The notes beneath the pieces are model-generated. The model saw nothing but the letters and a program-made list of their open reading frames with translations. It was not told the origin of the DNA and did no database searches. Positions 29,787 to 40,436 of a stretch of DNA of 58,274 bases are shown here, piece after piece (the first letter of the stretch is position 1; every line of letters starts with the position of its first letter). Position numbers and translations under genes: made by a program. This DNA is from an uncultured Acidobacteriota bacterium (GTDB lineage Bacteria > Acidobacteriota > Vicinamibacteria > Vicinamibacterales > UBA2999). Location: contig CADEFD010000006.1 of NCBI GenBank assembly GCA_902826515.1, forward strand, positions 13,658-71,931, given 5' to 3'.

Positions 29787-30806
29787 CTAGCGGGCGGGTT
29801 CGACGACGGGCGCGACGGCGACGACGACGGCCGGCTTCCGGCCCATCTCCCGCACGAACTGGTAGTGCGAACGCAGCGCGTCCATGAGGGTGATGTTCTC
29901 GCGGCACGGCACGCCGTGTTCGGCGCAGACTTCCTGCACCATCTTCGCCAGCGCCGGGTAGTGCACGTGTGCGATCCGCGGGAACAGATGGTGTTCGCGC
30001 TGGTAGTTCAGGCCGCCGAGCAGCAGCGTGGCCAGGCGGCTGTGCGTGGCGAAGTTCGACGTGGTGGCGATCTGGTGCACGACCCATTCCGGATGCGTGT
30101 CGCCGTTTGCCGGATGTTCGACGTTGTCCACCGTGTGCGCCAGCTGGAAGACCACGCTGAAGATGAAGCCCATCGTCATCGACACGAGCACGTAGATGCC
30201 GAACACGATGCCGGCGCCATGGCGGGACAGCGGAATCGCGAAGGCCACCGTGAAGAAGAACAGCTTGCCGCCGAGCAGCCAGGCCATGTCGGCGCCCTTC
30301 GGGTAGCCGGCGCTCAGGCCGTCGTTCTTGCCGAGGAAGAGGCGCTGCAGGTCGCTGTAGAGATAGCGGAGGTGTACGCCGGTGTACAGCACCCACAGGT
30401 AGATGTGCTGGTAGCTGTGCCACCAGCGCCACTCGTGATCCACGCTCAGCCGCGCCATCGGGCCGAGGTTGATGTCGGCGTCCTCGTGCGGGATGTTCGT
30501 GTACACGTGGTGATTGTGGTTGTGCTTGTCTTTCCAGAAGTACGAACTCGCGCCCATCAGGTCGAGCGTGAAGCCGGCCAGGCGGTTCACGCTCGGACGG
30601 CGTGAGAACGTGCCGTGATTGCCGTCGTGCTGCACGTTGAAGCCGATGCCGACGAGGGCCAGCGCCAGCACCACCGAGGACCACACGACTGTGACCGCGT
30701 CAGCGGCGTCGAAGACGAGCACCATGTAGGCCCAGACGGCGGCGCCGATGAGGGCGGCGGCCTTGGCATACATCATCGGGCTGTCCACGGTGGCGCGCGT
30801 CCCCAC
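29787..30806 (-). CDS. Membrane fatty-acid desaturase
   Basis: A 339-residue integral membrane di-iron desaturase. The three histidine boxes are HDGNHG (about residue 60), HNHNHH (about 94) and QREHH (about 272); the glutamine in the third box is typical of front-end (delta-5/delta-6-like) acyl desaturases. There is no cytochrome b5 domain, so an external electron donor such as a ferredoxin is needed. The first usable start codon is the GTG at 30806, but the reading frame stays open and protein-like for about 29 codons upstream without ATG/GTG/TTG, so the true start may be unusual. mqnB follows 49 bp downstream on the same strand. Confidence 0.88.
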   Translation of the reverse strand: MGTRATVDSPMMYAKAAALIGAAVWAYMVLVFDAADAVTVVWSSVVLALALVGIGFNVQHDGNHGTFSRRPSVNRLAGFTLDLMGASSYFWKDKHNHNHHVYTNIPHEDADINLGPMARLSVDHEWRWWHSYQHIYLWVLYTGVHLRYLYSDLQRLFLGKNDGLSAGYPKGADMAWLLGGKLFFFTVAFAIPLSRHGAGIVFGIYVLVSMTMGFIFSVVFQLAHTVDNVEHPANGDTHPEWVVHQIATTSNFATHSRLATLLLGGLNYQREHHLFPRIAHVHYPALAKMVQEVCAEHGVPCRENITLMDALRSHYQFVREMGRKPAVVVAVAPVVEPAR

Positions 30807-31104: not shown

Positions 31105-31743
31105 ATGTCGTCAGACACACAGGACCGTCGCGCCCTTCTCCTCGCCGGCCTCGGCATGGCCGCCACCTCCGTGACCCTCGGCGCGCGCGGCGCGCAGGCG
31201 CCGCCGGCCTCCACACCGTTCACGCCGGCCCGCCACGAGCAGGACGCGTGGATGTCGGCGATGCCCGGCCGGCATCGCGTCGTGCTCGACGTCGTGTCGC
31301 CCACCGGCGTGCCCGACGGCATCCGCTTCGCGGGTAATCTGTTCACCGGCAACAAGACGGGCTACGGCGTCGAGGAATCGGAGATGGCGCTCATCATGGT
31401 GCTGCGCCACTCGGCCACGGCCTACGGCTACAGCGACGCCATCTGGTCGAAGTACGGCAAGTCGATCGACGCGAAGGCGACTCCGCCGCCCGTGGCCAAC
31501 CCCTTCAACTCCGGTGAGCGCATGCAGCTCTCGGGGCTGGCGAAACGCGGCGTGCAGTTCATCGTCTGCGGCACGGCGAGCCGCGGCCTGGCCGGCCGGA
31601 TCGCCGGACAGGGCGGCGATGCCGACGCGGTGCTCAAGGAGATGTCGGCCAATCTCATCCCGAACGCGCGGATCGTGTCGGCGGGCGTCGTCGGCGTGAC
31701 CCACGCCCAGGAACACGGCTTCACATTGCTCTACGTCGGATAG
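31105..31743 (+). CDS. Exported DsrE-family protein 1
   Basis: A 212-residue protein with a twin-arginine-type signal (DRRALLLAGLGMAA, residues 7-20), followed by a DsrE/DsrF-like domain. The single cysteine of the mature part is C155 in VQFIVCG, the same position as in the second copy at 36759. DsrE-like folds handle sulfur as cysteine persulfide in cytoplasmic sulfur relay; exported relatives are widespread but uncharacterised. The ATG at 31105 has GGGAG upstream; the open frame continuing upstream to 30748 is not used. It is the first gene of a seven-gene plus-strand cluster that also encodes haem-copper oxidase subunits and a TsdA-like cytochrome. Confidence 0.75.
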   Translation: MSSDTQDRRALLLAGLGMAATSVTLGARGAQAPPASTPFTPARHEQDAWMSAMPGRHRVVLDVVSPTGVPDGIRFAGNLFTGNKTGYGVEESEMALIMVLRHSATAYGYSDAIWSKYGKSIDAKATPPPVANPFNSGERMQLSGLAKRGVQFIVCGTASRGLAGRIAGQGGDADAVLKEMSANLIPNARIVSAGVVGVTHAQEHGFTLLYVG

Positions 31744-31754
31744 GAGGCGTCATC

Positions 31755-32846
31755 ATGCGCTACTGGTTCACGTTCGCGGCGGCCGTCGCCGTCATGTCGG
31801 CGTCGTCCCTCGCCGCTCAGCCTGGCGGCGATGCCGCGCGCATCGCCGAAGCCGTGCAGATCCTGCCGGAAGACCTCCGGGCCGGCGCCACCGTCGTGAC
31901 CTACGACGCGGCCACCGGCGCCCGCCGGGTGCTTCGACAGGGCACCAACTTCGTCGAGTGCCAGCCGCGCGATCCGGCCGACGGCTTCGCCCGCTGCTAC
32001 CACAAGCTGTTCGGCCCGCGCCGCGACCTCGAAGCGAAGCTGAAGGCCGAAAAGAAGACCGAAGAGCAGATCAGCCAGGCAGTGGCCGCCGCCGTGAAGT
32101 CCGGCACCCTCCCGCCGACACCTCAGGGCGTGATGTCGTACCGTCACTACGACAAGCGCGATCGCATCCAGCACCTGTGGGTGTGGTCCACGCCGAACAG
32201 CACGCCTGAGTCGGTCGGTGTCTCCACGGTGAGTCAGCGCAACGAGGCGCTCGAGGGCCGCGGCCTGCCGTGGATGATGCTGCCCGGCACGCCCGGCGCG
32301 CACATCATGATCCCGATCAACCCGAAGCCGGCGAAGACCTCGATCACTGACGTGGCCGCCGACCCGATCGCGCAGGCGACGCTGCCGCTGCCGCTCGACC
32401 TGCGCGCCGGCGCCACCGTCTATACCTACGACGCCAACGGCGAGCGCAAGGTGCTGCGCCAGGGCACGAATCAGCTCGAATGTATGCCGCGCGGCGACGA
32501 CGGCTTCACGTGGTGCTACAACAAGTCCGGCGGTCCGCGCCGCGACCTCTCGGCGAAGCTGCGGGCGCAGAAGAAGACCGACAAGGAAATCGCCGAGGCG
32601 ATGGCCGAAGCCACCAAGGCCGGCACGGTGAAGCCGACCGAGTTCGGCACGATGTCGTACCGCCTCTATGGCAAGCCGGATCGCATCCAGCTGCTGTGGG
32701 TGATCTCGGTGCCCGGCGCCACGCCCGAGTCGATTGGCGTCACGACGGCCAGTGCCAGAGAAGACGCGCTCGAACTGCGCGGCACGCCGTGGCTGATGCT
32801 GCCCGGCACGCCCGGCGCGCACATCATGGTGCCGGTCAACAAGTAG
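31755..32846 (+). CDS. Exported protein with two tandem copies of an unknown ~155-residue domain
   Basis: A 363-residue protein of no family I recognise. After a signal peptide (residues 1-21), a domain starting LRAGATV.TYD and ending LPGTPGAHIM.P.N occurs twice (about residues 38-190 and 211-363). Both copies contain VLRQGTN..EC.PR, C-Y, GPRRDL.AKL, a charged helix with KKT, MSYR.Y, DRIQ.LWV and TPES.GV. Each copy has two cysteines about 15 residues apart, a possible disulfide or metal/haem-related pair. The AGGAGG ribosome site overlaps the stop codon of the preceding DsrE gene, so it is translationally coupled to the cluster. The function is unknown. Confidence 0.8.
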   Translation: MRYWFTFAAAVAVMSASSLAAQPGGDAARIAEAVQILPEDLRAGATVVTYDAATGARRVLRQGTNFVECQPRDPADGFARCYHKLFGPRRDLEAKLKAEKKTEEQISQAVAAAVKSGTLPPTPQGVMSYRHYDKRDRIQHLWVWSTPNSTPESVGVSTVSQRNEALEGRGLPWMMLPGTPGAHIMIPINPKPAKTSITDVAADPIAQATLPLPLDLRAGATVYTYDANGERKVLRQGTNQLECMPRGDDGFTWCYNKSGGPRRDLSAKLRAQKKTDKEIAEAMAEATKAGTVKPTEFGTMSYRLYGKPDRIQLLWVISVPGATPESIGVTTASAREDALELRGTPWLMLPGTPGAHIMVPVNK

Positions 32847-32946
32847 GACGACGGCCCTGTCCACGCGTCCGTCCCCTCCGCTCGTCCACACGGGACTCGT
32901 CCGCGCGCACGGTCTCGCGGCCCTCGTCACGCTGCTCGTCTCGGTC

Positions 32947-34278
32947 GTGTTCGGCCTGGTGGCCGCCTGGCAGCTCATCGCGCCCGACCTCGGCCGCGAC
33001 GTGGCGTGGCTCGGCTGGGGCCGGGTGCGCTACGCCCACACCCAGGGCATCATGCTCGGCTGGCTGGCCAACGCGTTCTTCGCGTTCCTCTATCACGCCG
33101 TGCCGATCCTCACGGGACGCCCGGTCACGAGCGCGCGCCTCGGCGTGTGGATCTTCGCGCTGTGGAACCTCGCCGTGATGGCGCCCGGCTGGGTGCTCGT
33201 GCTCGCCGGCGTCAGCCAGCCGCTCGAATGGGCGGAGTTCCCGCTGGTCGTGGACGTCGTGGCGGTCCTCGCGCTGGCGCTCGCCGCCGTGCAGTTCCTC
33301 CCCGGCTTCTTCCGGCGCGGCATCGAGTCGCTCTACGTCTCGAGCTGGTACATCATCGGCGGCCTCGTCTTCACGCTGCTGTCGTATCCGATGGGCAACG
33401 TCGTGCCGGAGTTCCTGCCGGGCGCGGCCGGCGCCGCCATCAGCGGCCTGTGGATCCACGACGCCGTGGGCCTCTTCGTCACGCCGATGGCGCTCGCCAT
33501 CCTCTACTTCGTGATTCCCGCCTCGACCGGCCGGCCCGTGTTCAGCCACTTCCTGTCGATGCTCGGCTTCTGGCTGCTGTTCTTCCTCTATCCGCTGAAC
33601 GGCACGCATCACTACGTCTACTCGGTGATTCCGATGGCGGCGCAGCTCACGGCAATCGTGGCCTCGGCGCTGCTCGGCGTGACCGTGGTCATCGTCGTCA
33701 CCAACCTGTTCCTGTCGATGCGCGGCGCCGGCCTGCTGCCAAAGGATCCGGCCCTGCGGTTCGTGGGCACCGGCACCTTCTTCTATGTCATCGTCAGCCT
33801 CCAGGGCTCCGCCCAGGCGCAGATGGCCGTGAACGAGACCGTACACTTCACCGACTGGGTGGTGGCGCATTCGCACATGGCGATGCTCGGCTTTGCCAGT
33901 TTCGCGGCGGCCGGCGGCCTCGTGCATGCGTGGCAGCGGATGCCCGAGGCGCGCTACAACGCCACGGCCATCACCTGGGCCTATTGGATGCTCGTCGTCG
34001 GGCTCGTCGGCATGGTCGTGGACCTCACGATCGGCGGCCTCGTGCAGGGCGAACTCTGGAAGAGCGGCGCCCCGTGGATCGATTCGGTCACCGCGTCGCG
34101 GGTCTACTGGGTGGCGCGCGCGCACATCGGCAGCATCCTCGCCGCCGGCTTCATCGCGCTCCTCGTCGGACTCACGACCGGGCCGCGCGGCGCCGGGATG
34201 TCGGTGCGTCCGGCGCCGTCGACTGACGGACGCGACGAGGTCGCGCCGCGGCTCGCGCCCGCCACGGAGGCCCTGTGA
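32947..34278 (+). CDS. ccoN: cbb3-type cytochrome c oxidase subunit I
   Basis: A 443-residue haem-copper oxidase catalytic subunit, type C. All key residues are visible: low-spin haem ligand in RYAHTQG; CuB ligand in WIHDAVGLF; the cross-linked tyrosine six residues before the His-His pair in YPLNGTHH; and the haem b/b3 ligands in VVAHSHMAMLGF. It reduces oxygen in the inner membrane while pumping protons. It is shorter than most CcoN. The first standard start codon (GTG 32947) falls inside what should be helix 1; the frame stays open back to the previous gene, so the true start may be a CTG at 32857, just after GGA. It overlaps the next gene by four bases. Confidence 0.9.
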   Translation: MFGLVAAWQLIAPDLGRDVAWLGWGRVRYAHTQGIMLGWLANAFFAFLYHAVPILTGRPVTSARLGVWIFALWNLAVMAPGWVLVLAGVSQPLEWAEFPLVVDVVAVLALALAAVQFLPGFFRRGIESLYVSSWYIIGGLVFTLLSYPMGNVVPEFLPGAAGAAISGLWIHDAVGLFVTPMALAILYFVIPASTGRPVFSHFLSMLGFWLLFFLYPLNGTHHYVYSVIPMAAQLTAIVASALLGVTVVIVVTNLFLSMRGAGLLPKDPALRFVGTGTFFYVIVSLQGSAQAQMAVNETVHFTDWVVAHSHMAMLGFASFAAAGGLVHAWQRMPEARYNATAITWAYWMLVVGLVGMVVDLTIGGLVQGELWKSGAPWIDSVTASRVYWVARAHIGSILAAGFIALLVGLTTGPRGAGMSVRPAPSTDGRDEVAPRLAPATEAL

Positions 34279-35513
34279 GCCGCGCCGGACAGGCCCTGCG
34301 CACGTCGTATCTCGTGGCGAGTGTCGCCGGGGTGCTGTTCTTCGCGCTGTCGGTGGCGCTGCTCGGCGTGTGGCCGGCGCGGCTGCTCGACCAGCAGACG
34401 GCGGCGATGGCGCCAGAGAAGCCGCTCGAACCCACCACGAGCGAGAAGCGCGGCCGCGCCGTCTACGCGCGCGAGGGTTGCGCCTATTGCCACACGCAGC
34501 AGATCCGCTACCTGCACGCCGATATGTCCCGGTTCGGCGCGCCCACCCTTGCCTGGGAGACGCGTCGCGACACGCCGCATCTCTGGGGCACGCGCCGCAT
34601 CGGTCCGGACCTCAGCCGCGTGGGCGGCACGCGCAGCCTCGACTGGCAGTACGCCCATCTGTATGCGCCGCGCGCGATGGTGGCCGCGTCGGTGATGCCC
34701 GGCTATCCGGCGCTCTTCGACGGCGCTCCCGATCGGCCGCGTCAGGAGGCCCGCGACCTCGTGGCGTATCTCGACGCGCTCGGCCGGGCCCGGGAACTGG
34801 CGGGGCCCGAAGGGGAGTCGCGGGCGCGTGCGGGCTGCAACTGCCCGGATGACGAGATGCAGCAGATGGCGTTCGAGGGGCCCTTGAACGCCCATCCGGC
34901 CCGTGCGATCCGCACGCCGGATGCGGCGCCAGCGCTCGCCGGAGGCGATCTCGAACGCGGCCAGGCGCTCTACGGCCGTCACTGCGCCACCTGTCATGGC
35001 ACGACCGGCGCAGGCGACGGCCCGGGCGCCCGCTATCTCGCGCCCGCGCCGGCGAAGCTCGCAGAGCACGCCTACGCGACCGCACGGCTCGCCGACGTGT
35101 TGTGGCACGGCGTGGCCGGGTCGGCGATGCCTGCCTGGCGCGATTACTCCACCGAAGACCGCGCAGCGCTCGCGCTCGCCGTGCAGGCGCTCTCGGCCCC
35201 GCGGCCCGAACCCGAGGTCCCCGCACATCTCGTGACGCTCGGCCGCGAGGTCTACGCCGCGAACTGCGCGCAGTGCCACGGCGTGGATGGCGACGGCCGC
35301 GGTTCGGCGGCCGGCAAGCTCACGATGGCGCCGGCCAACTTCACCGCGCAGCGGCTCAGCCTCACGGAGGCCGTGCGCGTGCTGCGCGAGGGCGTGCACG
35401 GGTCGCCGATGGCGCCGTGGACGACCCGCCTCACCGATGCCGAACGCCTTGCCGCGGCGCACTACGTCCGCAGCCTGTTTCGCGCGGCGCCGCCCGCCAT
35501 GGTGGGGCGATGA
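34275..35513 (+). CDS. ccoO: CcoO fused to two cytochrome c domains (trihaem cbb3 electron-input subunit)
   Basis: A 412-residue protein with one membrane anchor (about residues 12-32). Residues 55-175 are CcoO: EGCAYCHTQQIR (C69, C72, H73), PHLWGTRRIGPDLSRVGG and the Met ligand in ASVMPGYP. After a linker containing CNC (C188, C190) come two further class I cytochrome c domains, with CATCH (C237-H241; Met285 in SAMPAW) and CAQCH (C331-H335; Met379 in GSPMAPW). The fusion thus replaces separate CcoO and CcoP. The GTG start at 34275 overlaps the ccoN stop. It should accept electrons from a periplasmic donor, plausibly the TsdA-like cytochrome two genes downstream. Confidence 0.9.
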   Translation: MSRAGQALRTSYLVASVAGVLFFALSVALLGVWPARLLDQQTAAMAPEKPLEPTTSEKRGRAVYAREGCAYCHTQQIRYLHADMSRFGAPTLAWETRRDTPHLWGTRRIGPDLSRVGGTRSLDWQYAHLYAPRAMVAASVMPGYPALFDGAPDRPRQEARDLVAYLDALGRARELAGPEGESRARAGCNCPDDEMQQMAFEGPLNAHPARAIRTPDAAPALAGGDLERGQALYGRHCATCHGTTGAGDGPGARYLAPAPAKLAEHAYATARLADVLWHGVAGSAMPAWRDYSTEDRAALALAVQALSAPRPEPEVPAHLVTLGREVYAANCAQCHGVDGDGRGSAAGKLTMAPANFTAQRLSLTEAVRVLREGVHGSPMAPWTTRLTDAERLAAAHYVRSLFRAAPPAMVGR

Positions 35514-35695
35514 TTTCCGACCTCATCGTCTGGGCGTCGGTGGCCTTCGCCGTGGTCTTCGTCGCCGCCTGGGCGGCATCGCCGGCCCTGCGGGCGTGGA
35601 TCGAGCAGCCCAAGCACCACTTCCTGGCATCGGCCCGGCAGTATGATGCGGCGGAGCGGCCCGGCGGGCCGCCCCCAGACGCGAGAACGCCATGA
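35510..35695 (+). CDS. Small membrane protein in the oxidase operon (CcoQ-like position)
   Basis: A 61-residue protein with one N-terminal membrane helix (about residues 4-26) and a charged tail (EQPKHHFLASARQYD, then a Pro-rich end). It overlaps the upstream ccoO fusion by ATGA and the downstream cytochrome gene by ATGA, so it is clearly expressed with them. Position and size recall CcoQ/FixQ or CcoH-type accessory peptides, but the sequence is not a confident match. Confidence 0.65.
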   Translation: MISDLIVWASVAFAVVFVAAWAASPALRAWIEQPKHHFLASARQYDAAERPGGPPPDARTP

Positions 35696-36726
35696 GTCCC
35701 ACCGAGTCCCGCGGCCTGCCCGGTCTTGCCGGCATCGTCGTCTTCGCGCTCGTCGTTGGCGCGGCGGCCGTCGTGGCCGGCCTGCGCTATTCGGCCGTCG
35801 AGCCCGGCGGATCGTCCGACGCCGCCTCGCCCACGGCGCCGGCGAATTCAGGAGCCGAACGTCCGCGCCCGCCGCGTCCCGTGACCGACGTACCCGAACA
35901 TGCCACCGAAGAGTACGGACGCCGCCTCGTCGCGCAGACGGTCGAACTGCTCGGGCCGGATCATCCGGACCCGGCACGCCGCTATTCCGGCGGACGCCTC
36001 AACTGCGCGTCGTGTCATCTCGCCACCGGCACCGACCCTGGGACGCTCGCGCTGCTGCAGACGGCGGAACATTACCCGCGCTTCTCGGGCCGCGCCGGCA
36101 ACATGACCGACGTCGAGGATCGCATCAACGAGTGCATGCAGCGCAGCATGAACGGCACGCCGCTGCCGCTCGACAGCCCCGAGATGATCGCCATCGCCGC
36201 GTATCTGCGGTCGCTCGGGTCGCGCTACGAAGCCATGGGCGCGTCGCTCAGGAAGGCCAGCGAGCCGCCGGCCTTCAAGACGCCGAAGCGCGCGGCGAGC
36301 GTCGAGGCCGGCCAGACCGTGTACGGCGCCCGGTGTTCGGCGTGCCACGGCAGCGACGGGCTCGGCCTGCTCGCCACGGGTGAGAAAGCGAAGGGGTATC
36401 TCTTTCCGCCGCTCTGGGGGCCTGATTCGTTCAACAACGGCGCCGGGATGCACCGCGTGCTGACGGCCGCCCGCTTCATCAAGGCACGGATGCCGCTCGG
36501 CGAGGCGACGCTCACCGACGACGAGGCATTCGACGTCGCGGCCTACATCAACGCGCAGCCGCGCCCGCAGATGCCGAACCTCGAGCAGGACTATCCGGAC
36601 AAGGCCGCGAAGCCGGTGGACAATCCCTACGGGCCATTCGCCGACGAGTTCCCGCTCGAGCAGCACCGCGTCGGCCCGTTCCAGCCGATCGAAGACCACT
36701 ACAAGGCGCTCAGGAAGACGAAGTAG
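35692..36726 (+). CDS. TsdA-like dihaem cytochrome c (thiosulfate dehydrogenase family)
   Basis: A 344-residue cytochrome anchored by one N-terminal helix (about residues 12-33). Haem 1 binds at CASCH (C105-H109). The following DRINECMQRSMNGTPLP contains C148 at the place of the unusual cysteine axial ligand that defines TsdA active sites. Haem 2 binds at CSACH (C215-H219), followed by FPPLWGPDSFNNGAGM and IKARMPLG, where M267 can be the distal ligand. TsdA couples two thiosulfates to tetrathionate and passes electrons to a cytochrome or terminal oxidase. Membrane anchoring and linkage to ccoN/ccoO suggest direct transfer to this oxidase. The reverse, tetrathionate reductase, activity is also known in the family. 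Confidence 0.82.
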   Translation: MSPTESRGLPGLAGIVVFALVVGAAAVVAGLRYSAVEPGGSSDAASPTAPANSGAERPRPPRPVTDVPEHATEEYGRRLVAQTVELLGPDHPDPARRYSGGRLNCASCHLATGTDPGTLALLQTAEHYPRFSGRAGNMTDVEDRINECMQRSMNGTPLPLDSPEMIAIAAYLRSLGSRYEAMGASLRKASEPPAFKTPKRAASVEAGQTVYGARCSACHGSDGLGLLATGEKAKGYLFPPLWGPDSFNNGAGMHRVLTAARFIKARMPLGEATLTDDEAFDVAAYINAQPRPQMPNLEQDYPDKAAKPVDNPYGPFADEFPLEQHRVGPFQPIEDHYKALRKTK

Positions 36727-36743
36727 CGCCGGCATTGCCGGCG
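36727..36743 (+). repeat. Small intergenic hairpin in the cluster
   Basis: CGCCGGC (36727-36733) pairs with GCCGGCG (36737-36743) around ATT, directly after the cytochrome stop codon. It lacks a U-run, so it could stabilise or process the mRNA rather than terminate it. The next ribosome site, AGGAG (36746-36750), follows it immediately. Confidence 0.4.
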
Positions 36744-36758
36744 TCAGGAGATCCGACC

Positions 36759-37298
36759 ATGACGAAGACTCTGCTGGCCCTTTCGTTCGGTGTCGTATTC
36801 GCCGCCACCGCGGCGTCCGCTGCCGCGCAGGCGTTGCCCGTACCCGGTGTCGAGGCCGCGCGCGACGTCCCCGGCGCGAAGGAGATGCCGAATCCGGCGA
36901 TCGTGCACAAGGTGCTCTTCGACATGGCCACGGCCGGACCGAAGCCCACCGAGGTGCACCCGATGCTGCAGGCGGTGGCGCGCTACGTGAACACGCTGGC
37001 CAAGACGGGCGTGCCGGCGGCCAACCGCAAGGTGGCTGTGGTGTTCCACCAGGGCGCGACCGACTTCATCATGACGAACGACGCCTACAAGGCGCGGCAC
37101 GAGGGGCAGGACAACCCGAACCACGCGATGATTCAGGCGCTCAGCAAGGCCGGCGTGGACTTCCGCGTCTGCGGTCAGGCCACGCTCGGCCGCAAGATCG
37201 AGCCGAAGGACATGATGCCGGAGGTGCAGCGCGACCTGTGGGCGCTCACCACCATCATCGCCCTGCAGCAGCAGGGCTACGTGCTCATCGCACCGTAG
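36759..37298 (+). CDS. Exported DsrE-family protein 2
   Basis: A 179-residue protein with a Sec-type signal peptide (residues 1-23, ending SAAAQ). A DsrE-like domain follows with the conserved single cysteine C138 in VDFRVCGQA and a final YVLIAP strand. It is distinctly different from the DsrE-family protein at the head of the cluster (31105) but shares the V-x-F-x-V-C-G motif. Such proteins may bind or transfer reduced sulfur in the periplasm (inference). The ATG at 36759 with AGGAG nine bases upstream is preferred to an upstream TTG at 36735. It closes the cluster; the next gene is convergent. Confidence 0.8.
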   Translation: MTKTLLALSFGVVFAATAASAAAQALPVPGVEAARDVPGAKEMPNPAIVHKVLFDMATAGPKPTEVHPMLQAVARYVNTLAKTGVPAANRKVAVVFHQGATDFIMTNDAYKARHEGQDNPNHAMIQALSKAGVDFRVCGQATLGRKIEPKDMMPEVQRDLWALTTIIALQQQGYVLIAP

Positions 37299-37301
37299 CG
37301 C

Positions 37302-40300
37302 CTACTTCGCGACCACGGCCGGCACGTTGCGATCGCGCACCAGCCGGTTGAAGGCGGCCAGTTCGTCGCCGAAGAGCGTGCCGGCGCTGCGCTGCTGGCG
37401 GGCCCAGTCCTCGCCGAGGGCGGCAAGGCGTGCCTGCTGGCCATCGGTCGTGCCGCTGTCGCTCGCGTCGATCGCGCTCCGCAGGTAGATGTAGTACTGG
37501 TTCAGGCGCTGCGGGAAGTTGATGACGGTCTGGCCGTCCACGACGCGTTTCTGCACGAGGGCGTCTTCGAGCGCGTTCAGCTTGTCGACATAGGCCCGGC
37601 CCGCCTTCTCGATGGCCTCGCCGCCGGGCGTGCCCTTCGTGCGCCTGATGACGTCTTCCACCTGGGCACGGACATCGCGCAGGCGGATGACCGCGCGGTG
37701 CACGGCATTCAACTGCTCGTCCACGCGCACGTGCAGCTGCTCCTGCGCCTGCAGTTCGCTGAGCGGCGTCGTGACGCGCGGATCCATGCGCACCGTGAGC
37801 GGCGCCGTCAGCGTGCGGCCGCCGGCCGTGAGCCGCACCTGGTAGTCGCCGGGCAGCACGCGCCGTCCCTGCAGCGTGCCGAACACGTAGAGCCCGGGCA
37901 CCGGCACGGCCGGGTCGTGGCGCAGGTTCCACACCAGGCGGTTGAGCCCGGCCTTCACGGTGAGCGCGCCAGGCGGCGCGTCGAGCGACACCGGCGCATC
38001 GGGTTCGGGTTTCTTCGTCGAGTAGCGGCGCACGACGCTGCCGCCCTGCAGGATGTCGATGGCGACGTCGCCCTCGGGCACCGCCGCCAACCAGAAGGTG
38101 ATGAGTGCGCCGTCCGGCGCGCTTCGGCCGGCCCGGGGATTGTTGCCGCCGAAGCCGCCGAACGCCTGCGTGCGCCAGGCGGCACGCGGCGTGAAGAGCC
38201 GGACGTCGGTGGCGGCCGTGGCGTCGGTCCACTGCTGCAGGGCCGACAGGTCGTCGAGGATCCAGAAGGCGCGGCCGGCGGTGGAGGCGACGAGGTCGTT
38301 GCCGTGCACGCGCAGGTCGGTAATCGGCGTGACCGGCAGGTTGAGCTGCAGCTTCACCCAGCGCTGGCCGCCGGTGAACGAGACGTAGAAGCCGGTCTCG
38401 GTGCCGAGGTAGAGCAGGTCCTTCCGCACCGGGTCCTCGCGCACCACGCGCGCCCAGGCCTCAGGGGCGATGCCGTCCACGATCTTCGTCCACGTGGCGC
38501 CGAAGTCGGTGGTCTTGAAGACGAGCGGCGTGAAGTCGTTGAACTTGTACTTCGAGATGGTGACGTAGGCGGTGGCCGGCGCGTGCGGCGACACCTCGAT
38601 GATGTTCACCATGGCCTCGCCCACGCCCGGCGGCGTCACGTTCTTCCAGCTCTTCCCGCCATCGCGCGTGAGCTGCACGTAGCCGTCGTCGGTGCCCACC
38701 CAGAGCGTGTTCGCGTCGTGCGGCGACTCGGCGATGTCGTCGATGACGCCGTAGGTCTCGCCGCCGGCGCCTTCGTTCGTGATCGGGGCGCCGCCCGGGC
38801 CCTGCTTCGTGAGGTCGTTGCGCGTCAGATCCGGGCTGGCCTCCCGCCACGTCTTCCCGCGGTTGTCGGACCGGAGCAGCATGTTGCCGCCGTGGTAGAT
38901 GACCGAGGGGTTGAAGCGCGAGACGACGATCGGCGCGCTCCAGTTGAAGCGGTACTTCTGCTCCTTCGGAGGCACGGCGGCCGGCATCTGCGGCCACGCC
39001 ATGATGTCGCGTTCGGTCCGAAGCGTGTCGTCGAACTCGCTGATGATGCCCATGTAGCACCCCGCGTACACGTAACGCGGGTTCTTCGGGTCGAAGGCCG
39101 GCACGGCGCTTTCGCAGCCGCCGACGTCGTACCAGTCGCGTTCGGTGATGCCGCCGGGCGCGGCGCTCGCAATCTTGACCGACGTGTTGTCCTGCTGGCC
39201 GCCGTAGACGTTGTAGGGGAACTGGTCATCGACGTTGACGCGGTAGAACTGCGCGGTGGGCTGGTTGCCCTGCGTGGACCAGGTGCGGCCGCCGTTGAAC
39301 GACACGTTGGCGCCGCCGTCGTTGCCTTCGATGACGATCTCGGGGTCGCGCGGGTTGAACCAGATGCTGTGGTTGTCGCCGTGCGGCGTGCGCACGGACG
39401 TGATGCTCCGGCCGCCGTCGATCGACTTGCTGACCTCGGCGTTCAGCACCCAGACGACGTCGGGATTCTTCGGGTCGGCGGCGACCTTCATGTAGTACCA
39501 GGCGCGTGCATGCAGCGTCCACGCCTCGTTCACGAGCGTCCACGTCTTCGCGCCGTCGTCCGAGCGGTAGAGGCCGCCCTTCGGGTCCGCTTCAACCACG
39601 GCATAGATGCGATCCGGGTTGGCCGAGACGTCGATGCCGATCTTGCCGACGGTGGCGGGCAGGCCGGTCATCATCCGCTGCCACGTCGTGCCGCCGTCGG
39701 TGGACTTGTGGATGCCGCTGCCGGGGCCGCCGCTGCGCACCTGCCACGGCTGACGCAGGTGATCCCACATCGCCGCGTAGAGGATGCGCGGGTTGGTCGG
39801 ATCCATCGCCAGCTCCGACGGCCCGGTGGTCTCGTTCACGAAGAGCACCTGCGTCCACGTCGTGCCGCCGTCGGTCGAACGGTAGACGCCGCGGTCCTTC
39901 GTGGGGCCGTAGGCGGCGCCCTGTGCCGCCACGAGCAGGGTGTCCGGATCGGTGGGGTGGACGCGGATGCGCGAGATCTGCCGCGTGCGCTCGAGGCCCA
40001 GGTGCCGCCACGTGCGGCCGGCGTCGGTGGACCGGTAGACGCCGTCGCCGTGCGACGTCATGACGCCGCGGATGGGATGTTCGCCCATGCCCACGTAGAT
40101 CACGTTCGGATCGGACGGGGCCACGGCGATGGCCCCGACCGACGCCGTATTGAGCTGGCCGTCGGTGATGTTCGCCCACGTCTCGCCGCCATCGGTCGTC
40201 TTCCACACACCGCCGCCGACGCCGCCGAAATAGAACGTGCGCGGCTCCTGCGCCACGCCGCTCACGGCCACGACGCGGCCGCCGCGGAACGGCCCGATGT

Positions 40301-40436
40301 TGCGCCACTGCAGCGCCGCGAGTGACGGGCTGTCGAACTGCGGCGGCGCGGCGGCCGGCGGCGTCTGGGCCCCGGCGGGCAGGCAGGGGAGGGCGGCAAG
40401 GACGAGGGCGGCAAGGGCAGGTGCGGCGCGGTGCAT
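37302..40436 (-). CDS. Exported BNR/sortilin-like beta-propeller protein
   Basis: A 1044-residue secreted protein. A signal peptide (residues 1-23) precedes an extended BNR/Asp-box propeller region (about 40-720) with repeated S-x-DGG-x-TW motifs, for example TTDGGETW, STDAGRTW, STDGGTTW and STDGGTTW again. The C-terminal third (about 760-1044) is a beta-sandwich followed by a helical, coiled-coil-prone tail. Such proteins are abundant in Acidobacteriota and Bacteroidota and are often labelled as glycosyl hydrolases, but the catalytic residues of sialidases are not evident. It may be a surface binding or scaffold protein. It starts at ATG 40436 and is divergent from the SulP gene. Confidence 0.82.
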   Translation of the reverse strand: MHRAAPALAALVLAALPCLPAGAQTPPAAAPPQFDSPSLAALQWRNIGPFRGGRVVAVSGVAQEPRTFYFGGVGGGVWKTTDGGETWANITDGQLNTASVGAIAVAPSDPNVIYVGMGEHPIRGVMTSHGDGVYRSTDAGRTWRHLGLERTRQISRIRVHPTDPDTLLVAAQGAAYGPTKDRGVYRSTDGGTTWTQVLFVNETTGPSELAMDPTNPRILYAAMWDHLRQPWQVRSGGPGSGIHKSTDGGTTWQRMMTGLPATVGKIGIDVSANPDRIYAVVEADPKGGLYRSDDGAKTWTLVNEAWTLHARAWYYMKVAADPKNPDVVWVLNAEVSKSIDGGRSITSVRTPHGDNHSIWFNPRDPEIVIEGNDGGANVSFNGGRTWSTQGNQPTAQFYRVNVDDQFPYNVYGGQQDNTSVKIASAAPGGITERDWYDVGGCESAVPAFDPKNPRYVYAGCYMGIISEFDDTLRTERDIMAWPQMPAAVPPKEQKYRFNWSAPIVVSRFNPSVIYHGGNMLLRSDNRGKTWREASPDLTRNDLTKQGPGGAPITNEGAGGETYGVIDDIAESPHDANTLWVGTDDGYVQLTRDGGKSWKNVTPPGVGEAMVNIIEVSPHAPATAYVTISKYKFNDFTPLVFKTTDFGATWTKIVDGIAPEAWARVVREDPVRKDLLYLGTETGFYVSFTGGQRWVKLQLNLPVTPITDLRVHGNDLVASTAGRAFWILDDLSALQQWTDATAATDVRLFTPRAAWRTQAFGGFGGNNPRAGRSAPDGALITFWLAAVPEGDVAIDILQGGSVVRRYSTKKPEPDAPVSLDAPPGALTVKAGLNRLVWNLRHDPAVPVPGLYVFGTLQGRRVLPGDYQVRLTAGGRTLTAPLTVRMDPRVTTPLSELQAQEQLHVRVDEQLNAVHRAVIRLRDVRAQVEDVIRRTKGTPGGEAIEKAGRAYVDKLNALEDALVQKRVVDGQTVINFPQRLNQYYIYLRSAIDASDSGTTDGQQARLAALGEDWARQQRSAGTLFGDELAAFNRLVRDRNVPAVVAK

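Follow-up and report, generated by a model that had tools for sequence, protein, structure and literature searches.

How does an electron taken from thiosulfate by a tetrathionate-forming dehydrogenase reach oxygen? Only parts of the route have been established, and which oxidase stands at its end is usually a guess. The question is raised by a 58,274-nucleotide stretch of DNA (hereafter the window) from an uncultured Acidobacteriota bacterium (contig CADEFD010000006.1 of assembly GCA_902826515.1). Inspection of its open reading frames places seven co-directional genes on the + strand at 31105-37298, exactly where a first-pass annotation made from the letters had put them, and within this cluster a TsdA-type dihaem thiosulfate dehydrogenase is encoded together with the subunits of a haem-copper oxidase. 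We consider it likely that the cluster is a self-contained thiosulfate:oxygen respiratory module in which the oxidase is wired directly to the periplasmic TsdA. The annotation knew of no described system with this set, and the literature that we searched likewise contains no paper describing the cluster, or the clade to which its oxidase belongs, as a sulfur-linked group, although an earlier mention in subscription papers is possible.

Chance adjacency of CcoN, CcoO and TsdA is ruled out by the recurrence of this arrangement in 58 further loci. When about 85,000 species genomes were scanned with a CcoN alignment, 140 relatives emerged, and 80 of them were fetched; some come from genomes that the class survey described below also covers. 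TsdA lies next to CcoN-CcoO in 58 of the 80, on contigs of Acidobacteriota and Gammaproteobacteria, many of them uncultured and including Woeseiaceae and relatives; in 15 others the place of TsdA is taken by genes immediately upstream for a SorA-like molybdenum enzyme, SorB-like cytochromes or both, and in the remaining 7 the contig ends too soon for the neighbours to be seen. The neighbourhood survey that the annotation had proposed as its own refutation test finds the genes adjacent far beyond this one genome and does not refute it. Within the class of the source organism, we surveyed 193 genomes for orthologues of CcoN (E<1e-200) and of TsdA (>470 bits); each was found in 19 genomes, and both in 18. 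The two exceptions lie at contig edges: the genome with CcoN only (G144) has a contig end inside CcoO, and in the genome with TsdA only (G140) TsdA stands 89 bases from the end of its contig. The pairwise distances of TsdA, CcoN and DsrE1, the first protein of the cluster, also correlate (r 0.75-0.83), a result for which common descent alone would suffice.

The TsdA-type protein (35692..36726, +) matches the structure of Allochromatium vinosum TsdA (4wq7, E 9e-41), is recognised by Pfam PF21342 and scores 113-143 bits in pairwise comparisons with TsdA structures versus 39 bits with SoxA. A SoxA identity is ruled out by these scores and by the residues, TIGR04484 giving 49 bits against a cut-off of 110. 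Both CxxCH haem motifs (C105-C108-H109 and C215-C218-H219) are invariant among the aligned sequences. The catalytic set of the A. vinosum enzyme comprises C123, R109, R119, S127, G221 and R224 (PMC4423706). C148, singled out by the annotation as axial ligand, does align with the haem-ligating C123 and is identical in 58 of 58 orthologues, as are R134, R144 and S152 (Arg109, Arg119 and Ser127 in A. vinosum), while G252 and R255 (G221 and R224) are invariant among the relatives with residues there. The annotation had named a lack of C148 conservation among orthologues as part of a refuting result, and the conservation observed goes against it. M267, the ligand of haem 2, is kept in 57 of 57 relatives with a residue at this position, and a Met ligand is said to be strictly conserved across TsdA (PMC5146829). 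A hydrophobic helix at residues 11-29 is predicted to form an N-terminal membrane helix. Relatives of this TsdA were also sought in viral contigs, with no match. The window protein thus resembles TsdA/TsdBA of A. vinosum and Marichromatium purpuratum in its two-domain dihaem architecture, its Cys-ligated active-site haem and all catalytic residues, whereas it differs in its divergent sequence, in having no separate TsdB, and in being joined to a dedicated oxidase with a dihaem module on CcoO.

Subunit I of that oxidase, the CcoN-like protein (32857..34278, +), contains PF00115 (202 bits) and aligns with Pseudomonas stutzeri CcoN (3mk7, E 1e-38). H201, H251, H252, H61, H338 and H340, the ligands of CuB, haem b and haem b3, are kept in the relatives with residues there, and the cross-link tyrosine, Y245, is found in 80 of 80; this conserved helix tyrosine excludes a nitric oxide reductase. 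CcoO (34275..35513, +) combines a PF02433 domain, carrying one haem c, with a dihaem CcoP/c4-like module of two cytochrome c domains (PF13442/PF00034), and solved CcoO and CcoP structures match it; the annotated CcoN and CcoO fusion are both recognised by Pfam and by structures. No separate CcoP gene lies within the cluster, and the canonical NCBIfam models are not passed (ccoN 164 bits, cut-off 583; ccoO 111 bits, cut-off 201). The enzyme is therefore cbb3-related and of the C-family haem-copper type, but not a canonical CcoNOP. With the CcoNO(Q)P oxidase of P. stutzeri it shares the metal ligands and tyrosine of subunit I, a monohaem CcoO and two further haems c; unlike it, the window oxidase has its dihaem module fused to CcoO, belongs to a separate clade and bears Gly at CcoN residue 197, the counterpart of Trp203, as do 80 of 80 clade members. 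An account of Nitrospina gracilis (PMC3578206) describes an already known fused cbb3-type oxidase with subunits I, II and the dihaem part in one protein, and calls unusual the Trp203-to-Gly change that this oxidase shows too; it is reported there with nitrite oxidation, unlike the one in the window. Gly197 is a possible mark of an altered electron route to CuB. Given that the catalytic residues are complete in both TsdA and CcoN, both enzymes should be active, and the assignment of thiosulfate oxidation and of oxygen chemistry rests on strong homology.

The CcoN reading frame has no ATG, GTG or TTG at its real start, which appears to be a CTG at 32857, 10 bp past the preceding stop. This CTG is retained in 4 of 6 relatives checked, the other two having GTG or TTG; the GTG at 32947 was rejected as a start since it would remove the first membrane helix and since the CTG is kept in those four. 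Gene callers that disallow CTG would truncate that helix. In 30 of the 58 TsdA-type loci CcoN and CcoO form a single gene. The small membrane protein that follows CcoO (35510..35695, +) has one hydrophobic helix, is CcoQ-like by position only, and has a similar gene in 56 of the 58 loci.

Is this oxidase tied to sulfur compounds beyond the window? The CcoN proteins of these loci group together in a single, fully supported clade. The ordinary CcoN of the same genomes fall outside it and reach only 163-181 bits with the clade profile. In a smaller tree the TsdA-associated branch is one clade (support 100/100) and the SorA-associated rows form no single supported clade; on a larger CcoN tree the switch between TsdA and SorA takes one step, and the branching order within the oxidase clade is given no resolution by these trees. 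SorA of the sister loci, which is absent from the window cluster, scores 395 bits to the SorAB sulfite dehydrogenase structure 2blf and has SorB alongside. Sister loci of this SorAB-like type (L136-L138, L141, L143-L146, L148, L150-L153, L155) occur in Melainabacteria, Planctomycetes, Acidobacteriota and the cultured Pseudomonas poae and P. spelaei, and six of the SorAB-type loci also encode a metallo-lactamase/rhodanese protein.

Plasmids in Acetobacter ascendens LMG 1590, Komagataeibacter xylinus E25 and Paraburkholderia fungorum also encode a CcoN that belongs to this clade and is about 55% identical. On the A. ascendens and P. fungorum plasmids (L207, L208) the genes are those of a DsrE-family protein, a solute-binding protein, a TsdB-like two-domain cytochrome c, TsdA, CcoN and CcoO, the cytochrome and TsdA being the two genes upstream of CcoN. 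The Acetobacter cytochrome has TsdB as its best match (5lo9 residues 5-190, E 1.5e-35), the Acetobacter TsdA matches 5lo9 at E 6e-83, and a SoxA/TsdA domain is recognised in both Acetobacter and Paraburkholderia. The plasmid-type TsdA reaches no more than 148-160 bits with the profile of the window TsdA, and its CcoN sits on a separate branch; this suggests, without proving it, that the oxidase clade has TsdA partners of two lineages. The simplest account is that this clade has specialised in accepting electrons from periplasmic sulfur dehydrogenases, TsdA being the one in the window. The dedicated thiosulfate-to-oxygen path of the annotation is supported, its electron transfer inferred, and the sister loci of SorAB and TsdBA type strengthen it.

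In the proposed module TsdA, probably held to the membrane by its N-terminal helix, would by homology oxidise two thiosulfate to tetrathionate at the Cys148-ligated haem. Electrons would then pass from its His/Met-ligated haem 2 to the fused dihaem module of CcoO, on to the CcoO haem c, and through haem b to the haem b3-CuB site of CcoN, where oxygen would be reduced. The fused module would replace the separate TsdB found elsewhere, so that no soluble cytochrome pool would be needed. We infer this direct hand-over from the gene linkage together with the fused dihaem module.

Several observations weigh against the proposal. The window TsdA is divergent from the solved enzymes (143 bits), and the direction of its reaction is not readable from the sequence, the family being bifunctional. 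CcoP and c4 cytochromes, rather than TsdB, are the closer relatives of the dihaem module of CcoO. Around the core, gene content differs between loci, with DsrE2 and DD, the last and second proteins of the window cluster, kept less widely than CcoN-CcoO-TsdA. In addition, the host genome encodes a second cbb3-type oxidase, which CcoG adjoins (rather than adjoining the seven-gene cluster), and further terminal oxidases, all of which could also accept electrons from TsdA.

The exported DsrE proteins bear most directly on the alternatives. DsrE1 (31105..31743, +) has an RR (Tat-type) signal and no Pfam match; an AlphaFold prediction that drew on 41 relatives (pLDDT 89.6) is matched by Foldseek to 2pd2 (E 3e-5) and 1l1s (E 1e-4), which we take to be DsrE-like structures, and DsrE1 is thus assigned a predicted DsrE fold from structure prediction only. 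A match of DsrE1 to the thiosulfate dehydrogenase model NF052225 (18.5 bits, cut-off 300) was judged to be chance. DsrE2 (36759..37298, +) has an N-terminal hydrophobic signal and is identified by PF02635 (48 bits, cut-off 22.7). Of the two exported DsrE proteins that the annotation had seen at the cluster's ends, the second therefore stands by Pfam and the first by its predicted fold. An exported DsrE-type gene is present in 54 of the 58 TsdA-type loci and DsrE1 itself in 48, its Cys155 being invariant in all 48, whereas DsrE2 is near CcoN in few other loci only and falls outside the wider conserved core. Other sulfur genes recurring nearby are an exported rhodanese and a second DsrE. Several relatives (L030, L032-L035, L064) have, next to DsrE1, another DsrE1-like gene that is highly diverged, at about 24% identity. 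The Metallosphaera cuprina protein DsrE3A, likewise a DsrE protein, takes thiosulfate from tetrathionate on its Cys as a Cys-S-thiosulfonate, although it is cytoplasmic and paired with TusA and Hdr-like genes rather than with an oxidase (PMC4175335). By this distant analogy, the conserved Cys of the exported DsrE proteins would probably serve to bind tetrathionate or thiosulfate, or to hand it on.

This chemistry allows a different reading of the cluster, in which the TsdA-type cytochrome would conjugate thiosulfate onto Cys155 of DsrE1, a periplasmic carrier serving it as SoxY serves SoxAX; the oxidase would still receive the electrons, and the product would be carrier-bound sulfur in place of free tetrathionate. 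Such a Sox-like cycle would account for the near-constant exported DsrE-type genes, the invariant Cys155 and the exported rhodanese beside several clusters, and it draws on the Metallosphaera precedent and on the common mechanism of TsdA and SoxA (PMC4423706). However, the TsdA-specific Ser127, proposed to position the second thiosulfate (PMC4423706), is invariant here; DsrE1 is missing from some loci; and no SoxB that could free carrier-bound sulfur was found in the genome. We regard the cycle as unlikely.

Less probable still is that no dedicated path exists, TsdA feeding a general cytochrome c pool and a general oxidase, with the genes linked by their joint usefulness at low oxygen. The other terminal oxidases of the genome would permit this, and TsdB or c4 cytochromes have been proposed to feed ordinary cbb3 oxidases in other bacteria (PMC9237845). 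Yet wherever the contig extends far enough, members of the present clade are accompanied by a sulfur dehydrogenase, and the oxidase brings its own dihaem module. That the cytochrome instead reduces tetrathionate, or that the set detoxifies reactive sulfur or oxygen rather than yielding energy, we think very improbable: TsdA enzymes are indeed bifunctional (PMC5146829), but the coupling to an oxygen reductase speaks for oxidation, and related clusters contain SorA, of a sulfite-oxidising family.

The preferred reading, of a thiosulfate:oxygen module with direct wiring, could be extended to a sulfur-dedicated, cbb3-related clade with interchangeable TsdA, TsdBA and SorAB, in whose TsdA branch the exported DsrE proteins act as periplasmic carriers of thiosulfonate sulfur. 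We put this extension forward tentatively, as doubtful in its full form. To our knowledge, a role as periplasmic carrier of thiosulfonate sulfur is known only for SoxYZ.

The remaining protein of the cluster, DD (31755..32846, +), is exported and has two homologous domains. The annotation had left its family unassigned, and so it stays: DD has no Pfam or NCBIfam match, and a Foldseek search of PDB and of the viral library BFVD with its confident model (pLDDT 87.8) gave nothing at E<=0.001. It occurs in 30 of the 58 TsdA-type loci and would be an accessory protein. Single-domain exported DD-like proteins, about 35% identical, are widespread in the family away from the cluster (including L036-L041); they represent an unnamed domain family with an invariant Cys pair and an AHxM motif. 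As for the spacing of the seven genes, most of which the annotation had described as overlapping by 4 bp or sharing ribosome sites, 4-bp overlaps are found at three of the six junctions only, the remaining three having gaps of 11, 10 and 32 bp. The cluster is flanked on the opposite strand by genes for a fatty-acid desaturase (29787-30806) and a sortilin/VPS10-like protein (37302-40436), the latter followed by a SulP transporter gene.

The host genome (5.85 Mb, 94% complete) contains no recognisable SoxB (best match 37 bits, cut-off 550), RuBisCO was not found in it, and its SorA-like proteins are all below the curated cut-off. Since recognisable SoxB and RuBisCO are both absent, thiosulfate is probably an extra electron donor during growth on organic carbon. 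In uncultured Acidobacteriota, Woeseiaceae and their relatives, gene linkage itself now points to the oxidase that is used, and the proposal can be tested directly in cultured Acetobacter and Paraburkholderia, which carry such clusters on plasmids. If it is true, the exchange of TsdA, TsdBA and SorAB within a single clade of oxidases would provide a metagenome marker for sulfur-driven oxygen respiration.

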